A stretch of 29,456 bases of DNA from a virus, in IMG/VR virus record IMGVR_UViG_3300047297_000121, positions 1 to 29,456 of that record; one strand, written 5' to 3'. Below, in pieces: positions 1-29,401 of this stretch. A program made the position numbers and the translations under genes. Positions within the stretch are counted from its first letter, which is position 1; each line of letters begins with the position of its first letter. The notes below the pieces were generated by a model, which was not told the DNA's origin, did no database searches, and worked only from the letters and a program-made list of their open reading frames with translations.

Positions 1-425
1 ATATTGAACTTTCTACATTCATTAGTCCAATCAATTTTAATTGCATCCTTTGGACTAAAAATAACTAAATCAAATCCATTATCCACATAATGTTTTAATA
101 TTGAACAAGTCCATAATGTTTTACCAGAACCAACACCAGCGTGTAGTAAAAAAACATTATTAAATTTAATTTCCTCATAGAATTTTTTACTGGCTTCTAT
201 TTGCCATTGCCTTGGTGTAAATTGAAACATTTTATTAGATTTTTTTAAGTTACAAGCTGGACATAATGCCTGGGCATTACTTAAAGCAGTTATTCCTCCT
301 TTGCTAAATGGTATAACATGGTCAGCGTGCCAATACCTTGGAAGGTCGCATTTACACAACTGACATTTGCCTTTAGCAAGTCTGTATAATAATGATTTTT
401 CAGAATTAGAATAACTCCTTTTCAT
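1..425 (-). CDS. HNH nuclease-SF2 helicase fusion protein (3' end outside window)
   Basis: Leftward gene, start ATG at 425-423, open to the left edge; 141 residues are visible. Residues 21-59 form an HNH-type zinc/nuclease motif: C21-x2-C24, then HADH at 33-36, N50, and C55-x2-C58-N59. After a short linker comes FTPRQWQ (69-75), which resembles the Q-motif region of superfamily 2 helicases, then Walker A AGVGSGKT at 96-103 and an IFSP segment like motif Ia near 122-125. It is therefore probably a DNA helicase or translocase with a nuclease domain at its N terminus, acting in phage replication or recombination. The terminator-like hairpin at 434-468 lies immediately upstream. Helicase motifs II-VI would lie outside the window, so the family beyond SF2-like is inference. 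Confidence 0.75.
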   Translation of the reverse strand, partial: MKRSYSNSEKSLLYRLAKGKCQLCKCDLPRYWHADHVIPFSKGGITALSNAQALCPACNLKKSNKMFQFTPRQWQIEASKKFYEEIKFNNVFLLHAGVGSGKTLWTCSILKHYVDNGFDLVIFSPKDAIKIDWTNECRKFN

Positions 426-433
426 AAGGACAT

Positions 434-468
434 AAAAAAAGCCAAGCAGGTGATAGACTACTTGGCTT
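434..468 (-). terminator. Intrinsic terminator, leftward
   Basis: The stem 461-468/439-446 (AAGCCAAG with CTTGGCTT on the minus strand) is followed at once by T7 at 440-434. It would end leftward transcripts before the HNH-helicase start at 425. With the promoter at 533-565 upstream, it may act as an attenuator or as the 3' end of a small RNA. Confidence 0.6.
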
Positions 469-528
469 AGGGTGAAACAAAGATTTGTTTCATGTTCCTT
501 TGGATAGCTATCACTCCGTCCAAAGGAT
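434..528 (-). ncRNA. Candidate structured small RNA or attenuator leader
   Basis: A non-coding gap on the minus strand holds a promoter-like sequence, three consecutive hairpins and a terminator-like U-run. Hairpins in RNA order: C (519-526 with 497-504, 8 bp, 14-nt loop), B (485-492 with 473-480, 8 bp), and A (461-468 with 439-446, 8 bp, 14-nt loop), followed by T7 at 440-434. The loops of C and A contain the complementary heptamers GTGATAG and CTATCAC, which could form a kissing interaction. A nine-codon mini-ORF, MKQIFVSP, lies at 493-467. It could be a free RNA of about 95 nt or the leader of the helicase gene. I do not recognise a known RNA family, and the start point near 525-528 is inferred. 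Confidence 0.45.
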
Positions 529-532
529 AGAA

Positions 533-565
533 CAAAGATAAACTATTTTTAATTCTTTTCACCAA
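533..565 (-). promoter_or_regulatory. Bacteroidota-type promoter ahead of the candidate RNA
   Basis: On the minus strand, TATCTTTG at 540-533 matches the Bacteroidota -7 consensus TAnnTTTG exactly. A TTG at 565-563 lies 22 bases upstream, near the upper end of the usual spacing. The promoter overlaps the 3' end of the leftward gene ending at 549 and would start transcription just before hairpin C. Confidence 0.45.
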
Positions 566-788
566 TACTTTTAATATTTTCCATCCTCCCCTCTTCTATA
601 AATCCACTGCCCTGGCTTCCTCCGACTATCTTTAAATACTGATTCTCCACAGAGGCAGAGTTAATAATAGTCTGGGCAACATTGGCAATGACCTTTGCTT
701 TTTCAAGGTCGTAGTGGGAGTCGGGGTCGCTTAGTTCTTCAAGAACAACGAAGAGGTGGTTGCGGAGGTCGCTGATTTTGTTTTTCAT
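549..788 (-). CDS. Small phage protein of unknown function
   Basis: Encodes 79 residues. The first half, KISDLRNHLFVVLEEL, then LEKAKVIANVAQTIINSA, looks alpha-helical and resembles a small conserved phage protein often found among early genes of tailed phages; I know of no assigned function. The C-terminal 25 residues are Gly/Ser-rich and probably disordered. The start codon overlaps the stop of the upstream leftward gene by four bases (ATGA at 788-785), which suggests translational coupling. It lies between the homing-type HNH gene region and the helicase fusion, so an early role is likely by position only. Confidence 0.7.
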   Translation of the reverse strand: MKNKISDLRNHLFVVLEELSDPDSHYDLEKAKVIANVAQTIINSASVENQYLKIVGGSQGSGFIEEGRMENIKSIGEKN

Positions 789-1087
789 TTTGTTTTTATC
801 TTGATTTGGTTTAAAAATTTATGGTAAAGTTTTGGCATTGAATGTTCATATAAATTATCTAAATTCATCCAATTGCCAGTTGTGTAATTTAATTTCCATT
901 CATTGTGAATCAGCCATTTAGAAAAATCATCTATGACATCAAGTTGTTTTAATTCAGCTATATCAAATACAAATGGATGCCATGAGTCATTTTTATTAAT
1001 TTGTTTTAAATATTCAAGGGCTGTTTCATGTCTCGTTATTGGAGTGCTATCAATAACTTTTTCTGTGTCAATTTTAATGTTTTTCAT
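785..1087 (-). CDS. Hypothetical protein, possible paralogue of 2298-2573
   Basis: Encodes 100 residues, acidic and aromatic-rich, with no membrane segment or known motif. Its C-terminal half (a DDFSKWL segment, then a TGNW turn, then LYEHSMPKLYHKFL) resembles by eye the DEFGKFI / NNCW / LYKYFL pattern of the 91-residue protein at 2298-2573, so the two may be diverged copies of one small family. The start overlaps the stop of the HNH gene as ATGA at 1087-1084, and its own stop overlaps the next gene in the same way. That chain of four-base overlaps supports translation as one leftward operon. Function unknown. Confidence 0.65.
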   Translation of the reverse strand: MKNIKIDTEKVIDSTPITRHETALEYLKQINKNDSWHPFVFDIAELKQLDVIDDFSKWLIHNEWKLNYTTGNWMNLDNLYEHSMPKLYHKFLNQIKIKTK

Positions 1088-1728
1088 TTTATTTTGTCTT
1101 TAATCTGGTTAACCAATATTTGCACTTCTTTTAATTCCTGTGGCAATTTAGCATGGTTACGATTCAACACAGCCAAGTCCTTCCTGGAGACAAGGCAGAG
1201 GTTATTGATGTCATCATTTAATTTATCACCATCTATTTTAAATACTACCATGCCTTTGGGCACTGGCCCATGCACTTGTTCCCAGTTGTAACGGGAAACA
1301 GCCATCCATTTGTGATTAGTGTATTTAATCTCATTGTATCCATAATTGCATCTCAATGTACCTATTGGCTTTTGATTGTGAGGCTTATTACCTTTTACAA
1401 ATGTGCCTACCAATTTTGCTCTGTGTTCGGGAGACAATTTTATTCCTTTGTTCCATGGATTATGCCCTTTATAAAAGCAGGTGCGCCTTGCTCTTTCGCT
1501 TGTCTCTACATTCTGCCATTGTTCCAAGGCTATTTTTGAGCAATTCATTTTAATATACTTTTTATCTTTCTTTAATCCCATTTTATAGGCTTTGGCGGAG
1601 ATGGAAGTAGCAGAGTGTGGCATCCATGTAGCAATGACTTTGTTGGGAGTGTTTGGATATAGCTTTCTAATTATCTCTAACTCTTCCTCTGTAAACCTCT
1701 TTACTTTTTTCTTACTTCCTTTTACCAT
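1084..1728 (-). CDS. Homing-type HNH endonuclease
   Basis: 214 residues from the ATG at 1728-1726 (MVKGSKKK). An in-frame ATG at 1737 would add three residues, and the longer reading back to 1800 lies deep inside the methyltransferase gene and is unlikely. Residues about 12-52 (FTEEELEIIRKLYPN, then SISAKAYKMGL) look like a helix-turn-helix of the kind seen at the N terminus of phage HNH enzymes. The C-terminal core runs HKWMAVSRYNWE, HGPVPKGMVV, DGDKLNDDINNLCLVSR, the pattern of the HNH_3 family of free-standing homing endonucleases. The gene overlaps the upstream methyltransferase by 17 bases. It is probably a selfish element within the early operon; the target site is unknown. Confidence 0.8.
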   Translation of the reverse strand: MVKGSKKKVKRFTEEELEIIRKLYPNTPNKVIATWMPHSATSISAKAYKMGLKKDKKYIKMNCSKIALEQWQNVETSERARRTCFYKGHNPWNKGIKLSPEHRAKLVGTFVKGNKPHNQKPIGTLRCNYGYNEIKYTNHKWMAVSRYNWEQVHGPVPKGMVVFKIDGDKLNDDINNLCLVSRKDLAVLNRNHAKLPQELKEVQILVNQIKDKIK

Positions 1729-2305
1729 GATTATCATTTTTAACAAATAACAATCCCCAGGAACATACATCGGTAGCATCTTGTAAATAGTCAAAGCCAT
1801 GCTTTTTAAACAATGCTATCCAACCGTCTTTTTGCTTAATGTTAATGTGTCCCCATTCAATGTCCCATTGTGGGATAGTAGAGGTAAAAGGAGTAGATGT
1901 AAAATAAAAATATTTGTTACAGGCTTTGTAAAGGATAGGCATAACTTTATTTAACTCTGCATCTGTCATATGTTCAAAGACTTCAGTAGAATAAATAGCA
2001 TCATATTTGCCAGATAATTTAAACTTATCTTTTGCTAAAGTATATTTTGATGGCTCAATTCCTTTACTTATAGCAAAGTCTCTTTCATAGGGATTAATAT
2101 CATAGCCAACATGATTATATAAACCTATCCTTTGACAGGCAGATAAAAAGAAACCTAATCCACTACCAAACTCAAACACAGATGTACAGCCCATTATCTG
2201 CAATGTCCTTGCACCGTTGGTATGCAAGTTAACAAGTGATTCATAGTCACGCGTTGTAAAACCAAGTTCTACTGATTTGTCAAAAAAGAATTTGTTATCA
2301 ATCAT
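1712..2305 (-). CDS. Class I SAM-dependent methyltransferase
   Basis: Encodes 197 residues of Rossmann methyltransferase type. Visible motifs: VFEFGSGLGFFL near residues 43-54 (motif I, SAM-binding loop), VGYDIN near 67-72 (acidic residue after beta-2), and YDAIYSTEVFEHM near 100-112 (motif IV region typical of the Methyltransf_11/23 group). There is no DPPY or cytosine-type Pro-Cys motif, so it need not act on DNA; small molecules, sugars or proteins are possible. The start overlaps the upstream 91-residue gene by eight bases, and its end overlaps the HNH gene. It belongs to the leftward early operon. The substrate cannot be told from the sequence. Confidence 0.8.
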   Translation of the reverse strand: MIDNKFFFDKSVELGFTTRDYESLVNLHTNGARTLQIMGCTSVFEFGSGLGFFLSACQRIGLYNHVGYDINPYERDFAISKGIEPSKYTLAKDKFKLSGKYDAIYSTEVFEHMTDAELNKVMPILYKACNKYFYFTSTPFTSTIPQWDIEWGHINIKQKDGWIALFKKHGFDYLQDATDVCSWGLLFVKNDNHGKRK

Positions 2306-4989: not shown

Positions 4990-5448
4990 ATGCCATACAT
5001 AAGCAAAGGAATAGGGAGTACCATATACAAAGCTAAGATGCAGCGCACACCAAGCGGTGAACAAGGCAGTTATAACAACGCATGGCATAAGATGAGTAAG
5101 GCTTATCGTCGTGCTAATCCTTTATGTGAATGCTGTATAGTGTTAGGTATTATGACTGACATAACAACAGGAGATTACAAGGGATGCGTAGATCACATGA
5201 TACCTATCACGCGCAATGGTTCAATGTATAATCTAAACAATCTATTAGCACTGTGTAAGTCTTGTCATGATACGAAGTCAATCAATGAGAAGACAAGCAT
5301 AGCACCAGTTACCTTGCACATAGACGCAGATGGCAAGTATGTACCTGCCAACAAGGCACAGGTAGTGGCATGGTTAGCGGACAAGGTGAGGAAGAGGGTC
5401 GAGGTCGAGGGAGGAGGCGAAAGAGACGGGGGAGGAGCGAAAACATAG
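4990..5448 (+). CDS. HNH endonuclease of the packaging module
   Basis: Encodes 152 residues. Zinc/HNH motif: C46-x2-C49, VDHMIPI with D68-H69, N82-x2-N84 region, and C89-x2-C92-H93. This is the form of HNH protein found just upstream of terminase genes in many cos-type, HK97-like phages, where it is known to work with the large terminase in DNA end cutting. The spacing fits: TerS follows after 89 bases. The C-terminal 25 residues are Glu/Gly/Arg-rich and low complexity. The start directly follows the glycosyltransferase stop. Confidence 0.88.
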   Translation: MPYISKGIGSTIYKAKMQRTPSGEQGSYNNAWHKMSKAYRRANPLCECCIVLGIMTDITTGDYKGCVDHMIPITRNGSMYNLNNLLALCKSCHDTKSINEKTSIAPVTLHIDADGKYVPANKAQVVAWLADKVRKRVEVEGGGERDGGGAKT

Positions 5449-28521: not shown

Positions 28522-29401
28522 AATTTATCCTTTTATTTAAAAAGTTACGTTTAACGTATTTACTTACAAATTTAAGTAAATCATGATACTCATAATATTT
28601 ATTACCATGTCTCCAAATGCCCATCAATGGCAAATATTCTAAATTCAATGTTCCAAAAGTCAAAAATAAACAGTTATCAGATGTAGTGTTTGAATAACCA
28701 TCCCACAAATTTATTCCGGATAGCATATCATAAGTTATAGTATCAACAGTATAACTTCCATCTGCTACACTATAATAACTTCTTTCTAACAATTTATTTC
28801 CTATCTTTTCAAAGCCAACAGTATTATATGCCATAAAGTGATTATTCTGTCCATTTACGGTAGTTACTGCAAGCACTAACATGATAGCTAATGATAATTG
28901 AACGCTGCGCACTGTTGTATTCATCTGTACTGGCTCTTTATCCCTCTTTTGTAAATTACGCTTCCTTGGTGTTTTACTGCCAATACCATACGCTTCTATG
29001 CCCTTCTCAATGAATTGTATTTCCAAAAAGTATCCAAAACAGATAATTGTGCCAATAAAAAAGAACATAGCGTAAAACTCTGCACCAGTTGACTGTCCTT
29101 GAATAGAAAAATACAATTCCAATAATGCTACTACTGTGGCACCTGCAGCAACCTTGGCAGGATAAGGTGATCTCTTTTCACTTGGATTTAAGAAGTCAAT
29201 AAATACAATGGCAAATCTGCCAAACTGCAACATGAGAGAGGCAGGGATAGATAGTAAAAGAGGAAGGGGAAGAAAATACACATTTAGTGCTGCTGTGATA
29301 AGGTATGTTAAAATTATACCTACAAAAATAATCTTTGGCATTGTTGATTTTATATCATCAAATAGCCATTCAAATGTCTGATTGTTAAAATTCTTTTTCA
29401 T
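28457..29401 (-). CDS. Membrane protein fused to a signal-peptide-like exported domain
   Basis: Encodes 314 residues. Four hydrophobic segments lie at about 23-43, 46-70, 84-100 and 108-130. After a basic linker (TPRKRNLQKRDKEP), residues 160-186 have the shape of a cleavable signal peptide (MNTTVRSVQLSLAIMLVLAVTTVNGQ), and residues to 314 are polar and aromatic-rich (LFLTFGTLNLEYLPLMGIWRHGNKYYEYHDLL). An internal ATG at 28924-28922 could begin this part on its own. It is first in the leftward block, after the promoter at 29440-29447. Function unknown; superinfection control is only a guess. Confidence 0.7.
   Translation of the reverse strand: MKKNFNNQTFEWLFDDIKSTMPKIIFVGIILTYLITAALNVYFLPLPLLLSIPASLMLQFGRFAIVFIDFLNPSEKRSPYPAKVAAGATVVALLELYFSIQGQSTGAEFYAMFFFIGTIICFGYFLEIQFIEKGIEAYGIGSKTPRKRNLQKRDKEPVQMNTTVRSVQLSLAIMLVLAVTTVNGQNNHFMAYNTVGFEKIGNKLLERSYYSVADGSYTVDTITYDMLSGINLWDGYSNTTSDNCLFLTFGTLNLEYLPLMGIWRHGNKYYEYHDLLKFVSKYVKRNFLNKRINYDEICRHRSSNAAKRLGSVCY

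Follow-up and report, generated by a model that had tools for sequence, protein, structure and literature searches.

Between two leftward genes of a virus record (IMGVR_UViG_3300047297_000121, positions 1 to 29,456; these 29,456 nucleotides are hereafter the window) lies an element that is probably a portable cis-acting 5' leader, namely a transcription attenuator in which a kissing contact between the loop of its first hairpin and the loop of an intrinsic terminator would set or gate termination. Across at least 59 versions in related phages the pairing is kept while the letters change, which suggests an RNA switch not described before. Considering the promoter type and the Polaribacter phages described below, the window phage and its class I relatives probably infect Bacteroidota.

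Architecture of the predicted leader in the window

The promoter box, the hairpins and the terminator that the initial annotation had placed between the two genes are indeed found there, on the minus strand, and its estimate of about 95 nt holds (434..528). As for its succession of three hairpins and then a terminator stem, the hairpins are real but three in total, the third being the terminator itself. The complementarity between the loop of the first hairpin (H1) and the terminator loop, which is the defining feature of the element, had been missed, and the earlier interpretation is supported in part. The features are as follows:

549..788, minus strand: upstream co-directional gene, 79 aa (ORF list; phrog_2044, E 3e-14)
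540-533, minus strand: -7 box TATCTTTG, of the Bacteroidota sigma-A type, TAnnTTTG (sequence)
434..528, minus strand: predicted leader RNA of about 95 nt, beginning at +1 and including the whole T-tract (covariance model and fold)
496..527, minus strand: H1, TCCTTTGGA-CGGAGTGATAGCTA-TCCAAAGGA, 9-bp stem and 14-nt loop, starting at about +1 (covariation)
508..514, minus strand: kissing strand A, GTGATAG, in the H1 loop (covariation)
473..492, minus strand: H2, TGAAACAA-ATCT-TTGTTTCA (covariation)
439..468, minus strand: H3, the terminator hairpin, AAGCCAAGTAG-TCTATCAC-CTGCTTGGCTT, 11-bp stem and 8-nt loop (covariation and terminator scan)
450..456, minus strand: kissing strand B, CTATCAC, in the terminator loop, perfectly complementary to strand A (exact complement)
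434..440, minus strand: T-tract of seven T directly 3' of the terminator stem, overlapping its last two pairs (sequence)
3..425, minus strand: downstream gene, HNH endonuclease and ResIII/DEAD helicase (PF01844, 8e-12; PF04851, 7e-6)

The downstream gene, earlier called an HNH-helicase, is confirmed as such by its HNH and ResIII domains; its ATG stands at 425-423, 8 nt 3' of the terminator and T7 (468-434), and the gene is truncated by the left end of the record. In several relatives a second leader is found 3' of the helicase gene, the window record being a fragment. On the other side, the stop codon of the 79-aa gene ends 8 nt 5' of the -7 box. The family matched by this gene, phrog_2044, carries the label 'RNA polymerase beta subunit', which looks like a mis-annotation for a 79-aa phage protein. 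Besides the HNH-helicase, the window has two more HNH endonuclease genes, at 1084-1800 (minus strand) and 4990-5448 (plus strand), that is three altogether.

The RNA strand from 426 to 548 folds at -38.0 kcal/mol against -20.3 (sd 3.0) for shuffled sequences (z = -5.8; none of 200 shuffles equal), and the covariance model matches the window at 433-529 with 87.6 bits (E 5e-14). Because the TAnnTTTG box occurs 54 times in the window, it is weak evidence by itself, and the terminator scan found 3 terminators in 4.2 kb where 2.3 were expected; neither the promoter box nor the terminator is significant on its own. Judged by its conservation, the element as a whole stands far above chance, considering the model E-value of 5e-14 and full covariation over 40 distinct sequences.

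In Flavobacterium, the -7 box occupies positions -12 to -5 (PMC9723704, PMC6847099), hence a predicted +1 at about 528 in the window. In the relatives the box begins 12-13 nt 5' of H1 and, given the box position in Flavobacterium, H1 would therefore start at +1 or +2. No conserved copy of the -33 TTTG was found upstream of the box in the window or the relatives, this region being A-rich instead. While some of the copies were collected by a pattern including the box, those retrieved through protein baits have it too.

Relatives and covariation of the kissing helix

The exact 32-nt H1 is present in nine viral contigs, and more relatives were obtained using the helicase gene, a ParB-methyltransferase gene and the 79-aa gene as baits; extra copies came from a DNA pattern limited to the promoter and the 5' arm of H1, as well as from searches of whole records. 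Altogether, 59 distinct RNA copies were gathered, all of them in uncultured phages (class I). The loop pairs of the first comparison, GTGATAG/CTATCAC, GTAGCAG/CTGCTAC, GCACTAC/GTAGTGC and GTTGAGG/CCTCAAC, already differ in letters and agree in pairing. In the first alignment (32 sequences), all seven pairs of the kissing helix had double changes and 96.9% of cells were paired, but these sequences had been chosen partly by loop complementarity itself, and for this reason the covariance model was made without the kissing pairs.

Among the 59 distinct RNAs, 56 could be parsed by script, i.e. 26 from the training set and 30 outside it. At least seven contiguous Watson-Crick pairs join the two loops in all 30 parsed copies outside the training set, compared with about 2% for swapped loops. 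For the three unparsed copies the complementarity was read by eye, namely AGTGCAG/CTGCACT (L248), CTAGACA/TGTCTAG (L021) and GTGATAG/CTATCAC (L264).

Covariation across related phages had been proposed as a check by the initial annotation, and in the model-fitted alignment (40 distinct rows) all four helices covary, with 96.9% of cells paired and double changes in 29 of the 32 pairs; none of 500 shuffles scored as high, and slid registers reached 39-51%. Helix by helix, double compensatory changes are found in 6/8 modelled pairs of H1 (98.1% of cells paired), 6/7 modelled pairs of H2 (97.8%) and 10/10 pairs of the H3 terminator (97.8%). In the kissing helix, compensatory double changes affect 7/7 pairs with 93.2% paired, and the covariation score is 0.719 against 0.216 (sd 0.025) for shuffled sequences; taken alone, this helix has a percentage paired and a covariation score that none of 500 shuffles attain, the count of further pair types being not distinctive against the same 500 shuffles. 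Class I comprises about 19 different kissing sequences, and the difference between copies amounts to 51% at the kissing positions vs. 31% in the rest of the RNA.

Such a whole unit from promoter to terminator, with a very stable fold and a 5' end that would be paired at +1, could also be expected of a free-standing small RNA, as the initial annotation had put forward, here taken to act in trans. The product would then be the 95-nt RNA itself, the kiss would serve compactness and nuclease resistance, and the downstream gene would be expressed by leaky read-through. Yet the fast variation of the loops (51% vs. 31% elsewhere) argues against a conserved target-binding seed, and nowhere else in the window is the H1 loop matched exactly, but only with two mismatches. 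Together with the coupling of every copy to a downstream gene, detailed below, this makes such a small RNA quite unlikely.

Self-dimerisation through the palindrome GATAGCTATC in the H1 loop of the window was considered and rejected, the palindrome being not conserved among the loops of the relatives. A search with the pattern TTCAAAGGAANNTGGAACAA returned seven contigs, with class I copies in only one record (G069).

Coupling to the downstream gene and portability

In 59/59 distinct copies, a co-directional ORF lies directly 3' of the leader. The distance from the start of the T-tract to the ATG is 11-32 nt with a mode of 14-15 (30/59 copies at 14 or 15), no copy out of 59 has a TAnnTTTG box between T-tract and ATG, and such a box is found inside the RNA in two of the 59. 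In most copies, an upstream co-directional ORF ends no more than 45 nt before the box. The ORF spacing, the absence of a promoter and these upstream ORF ends indicate that the leader is nested in operons, with a downstream gene dependent on read-through. This tight coupling weighs against the free-standing small RNA, and the second option of the initial annotation, that is an attenuator for the HNH-helicase, appears the better supported of the two.

The third hairpin has the features of a terminator throughout, with stems averaging -15.5 kcal/mol in the relatives and a longest T run of 6-10 in 52 of 56. A leader acting on translation or mRNA stability would instead suppose that this hairpin is no terminator in practice and that read-through is constitutive, the kiss protecting the 5' end or shaping a ribosome landing site about 14 nt before the AUG. 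A leader pseudoknot reportedly controls translation of IncI repZ, so that translation control of this kind is possible and has a precedent. The strongly peaked distance from T-tract start to ATG also fits such a role, as does an H1 at +1, which would shield the 5' end. In flavobacteria, moreover, structure near the start codon matters for translation initiation (PMC6847099). Against it, the T-tract abuts the stem in a fixed manner while anything from 11 to 32 nt separates its start from the ATG, as expected for a terminator and not for a ribosome site, and this explanation is considered unlikely.

The genes found downstream belong to several families: ParB/MT-A70 and N6_N4 methyltransferases, Dam methyltransferase, the HNH-ResIII helicase, AP2-HNH nuclease, MUG113 (GIY-YIG-like) protein and HTH_36 proteins, the last of which look like replication initiators. 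Many are DNA-modifying enzymes, but as about half of the set comes from a single ParB-methyltransferase bait, the proportions of these families are biased. The same or nearly the same RNAs have unrelated neighbours upstream as well as downstream; unrelated downstream genes combined with a fixed ORF coupling argue for a portable cis leader and not for a free-standing small RNA.

This portability is also apparent from genes devoid of the element. Some ParB-methyltransferase genes are kept without any leader, a finding that the initial annotation would have held against the RNA; the absence of the leader beside a kept gene shows transferability between genes and does not show the RNA to be non-functional elsewhere. 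Since other relatives of the same gene have none, the leader is optional as well as portable. Conversely, two leaders can coexist in one phage, in about nine distinct combinations, mostly 1.4-2.5 kb apart and always with different kisses; in seven cases (L259, L260, L262, L193, L097, L184 and L181), two leaders with different kisses flank one gene module. About nine combinations are too few to establish orthogonality against chance.

Proposed mechanism

In the attenuator reading, transcription from the promoter would start at the base of H1, so that the 5' end would be paired at once, and H1 would display a purine-rich 7-nt segment in its loop. About 50 nt further on, an intrinsic terminator would present, in its 8-nt loop, the exact complement of this segment, and the two hairpins would form an intramolecular kissing complex as the terminator hairpin exits the RNA polymerase. 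As the loop would emerge at about the time the polymerase reaches the T-tract, H1 could engage the terminator at the very moment of decision. The next gene begins 11-32 nt after the start of the T-tract and would, for that reason, be expressed only upon polymerase read-through.

A conserved partner for the 5' arm of the terminator, such as an antiterminator helix would need, was not found, this arm being free in 22 of 56 truncated folds, and the kiss leaves the terminator stem intact. Because no conserved alternative pairing disrupts the terminator, the leader would not be a classical two-state attenuator. A TAnnTTTG box on the opposite strand, as an antisense promoter would have, is present in only 2/59 copies.

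Positions 496-470 of the window (minus strand) hold AAAGGA-AC-ATG and a short ORF (MKQIFVSP*) with an in-frame stop just 5' of the terminator, which is not kept in the relatives. Such an arrangement would suit a leader-peptide attenuator, in which AAAGGA in H1 would recruit ribosomes to a short ORF in H2 and their stalling would decide termination. Among the 56 relatives, however, the start codon is absent in 17, a stop within the leader is absent in 22, and start and stop occur together in only 17; besides, SD sequences are naturally missing in members of this phylum (PMC6847099). With the short ORF not conserved, the leader peptide was rejected and is regarded as exceedingly improbable.

Thus none of the three usual switches of an attenuator, antiterminator helix, leader peptide or antisense promoter, is evident from these comparisons, and what is conserved is the loop-loop contact. 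Beyond attenuation, the released RNA might act in trans, or its structure might serve translation or mRNA protection. More tentatively, these leaders might form a widespread class of phage switches in which the RNA's own 5' hairpin reads the terminator loop by a hypervariable kissing code diversified against cross-talk, a doubtful but conceivable extension. Such a code, avoiding cross-talk within one phage or between competing phages, can be likened to the loops of plasmid incompatibility.

Divergent leaders and cultured phages

Outside the model, ParB-methyltransferase relatives often keep a box at 100-140 nt 5' of the ATG together with a hairpin beside the ATG that resembles a terminator and whose apical region complements the leader's first 35 nt. 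The kisses of these divergent leaders are GACTTCAC, ACGGACA, TGTGCATA, GCTTCAAC, GCAACCAC, GTTGCAT, GACCCGA, AGGTCGAAGC and ATTGAGGC. Individual p-values range from 0.0005 to 0.06 and combine to about 1e-13, with a few members mutually related; when tested against the whole downstream leader instead of the apical region, most are individually not significant, and in some of these relatives a match of 6-7 nt is the only sign of the kiss. The members of a marine subclass (L290-L328) share GCGTTAGTA-loop-CGAAAGCG, and those with a promoter mostly have the kisses GTGCAT, GGTAGGA or TGTGCATA. The conserved flanks GCGTTAGTA and CGAAAGCG surround the variable loop inside the terminator hairpin of this subclass and might be a protein-binding motif. 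A descriptor requiring the box, the loop complement, the terminator and the ORF retrieved 74 distinct leaders with the reverse complement, vs. 0 (reverse), 3 (complement) and 0 (same-sequence) in the controls.

In cultured phages, a leader of the same plan is found in Polaribacter phage Danklef_1 (NC_062745), 5' of gp42, with its box at 28556-28563, a predicted +1 at about 28568, its T-tract at about 28651-28657 and the kiss GGTGGAA/TTCCACC. Freya_1 to Freya_10, from a different Polaribacter host, have the Danklef leader; the Freya_1 copy matches it without a difference as far as the end of the T-tract, beyond which identity is lost and another gene follows. In Danklef, a gene with a GIY-YIG domain occupies precisely the interval from the leader to the following gene, and Freya lacks it (L287, 28678-29043; L329, 1641 onward), hence homing-type nuclease genes may be inserted where the leader ends. 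Danklef and Freya possess an integrase, and the paper on these phages (PMC8776804) uses none of the terms small RNA, non-coding and terminator.

This insertion, along with the same or nearly the same leaders between unrelated genes, could suggest a DNA-level recombination or homing site at module boundaries, the hairpins serving DNA recognition. Nevertheless, interleaved loop-loop covariation and the polarity from promoter to T-tract would be a signature of RNA and of no use to double-stranded DNA, which renders a DNA element very improbable.

Among four named phages submitted to the descriptor, only Danklef_1 was positive, with Croceibacter P2559S, Flavobacterium 11b and bajarodcaudo virus 4 negative, and no similar DNA was found in cultured phages for class I. 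In Bacteroidota chromosomes, neither the class I model nor the class II pattern was found (0/395 genomes each), which is weak evidence of absence, the searches having used fast filters without positive control.

Comparison with known systems

In line with the statement of the initial annotation that no known family is recognised, none of the Rfam families (Qrr, PyrR, ctRNA_pT181 and 4224 others) exceeds the gathering cut-off in the window or in eight relatives, and relaxed thresholds gave likewise nothing; the best sub-threshold match is Qrr, with 26.6 bits vs. 50 needed. In the literature, considering open-licence papers, no description of such an element was found.

The leader of IncI-alpha/IncB repZ (repA) bears a resemblance, since the loop of its first stem-loop is said to pair with a distant segment just before the controlled gene. 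In repZ, however, the loop pairs at the ribosome site, in competition with an antisense RNA, and the controlled gene is invariably the replication initiator. In the present leader the loop of an intrinsic terminator takes the place of that partner, no antisense promoter is conserved (opposite-strand box in 2/59 copies) and the genes vary. In the countertranscript attenuator reported for pT181 repC, hairpin loops and an intrinsic terminator likewise decide the expression of the next gene, but an antisense transcript is required, none being indicated here (2/59 opposite-strand boxes). In purine riboswitches, the L2-L3 contact organises an aptamer, whereas the present contact would involve the loop of the terminator itself, and no conserved ligand pocket was seen. 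What they have in common with the present leader, as read here, is an intramolecular loop-loop contact in a leader RNA controlling expression (PMC5480868). Coliphage HK022 put differs in targeting remote terminators and in having no terminator of its own. Much as the present element would be, it is a phage-encoded nascent RNA structure that controls termination, in its case in early phage transcription (PMC9378689). Another difference is its direct action on RNA polymerase, through which this nascent RNA suppresses termination (PMC9378689). Each of these nearest comparators, i.e. repZ, countertranscript attenuators, put and loop-loop riboswitches, lacks at least one feature that defines the present leader.

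Biological significance

If this reading is true, phages would control methylation, nuclease, helicase and HTH genes inside operons by a compact RNA module that was transferred between unrelated genes. The coupling of a terminator to the 5' end of its own RNA by a programmable 7-bp contact would represent a new way of tuning intrinsic termination, and the diversity of kisses would be a natural source of orthogonal terminator parts. With a version of the leader present in cultured Polaribacter phages, these proposals would be directly testable.
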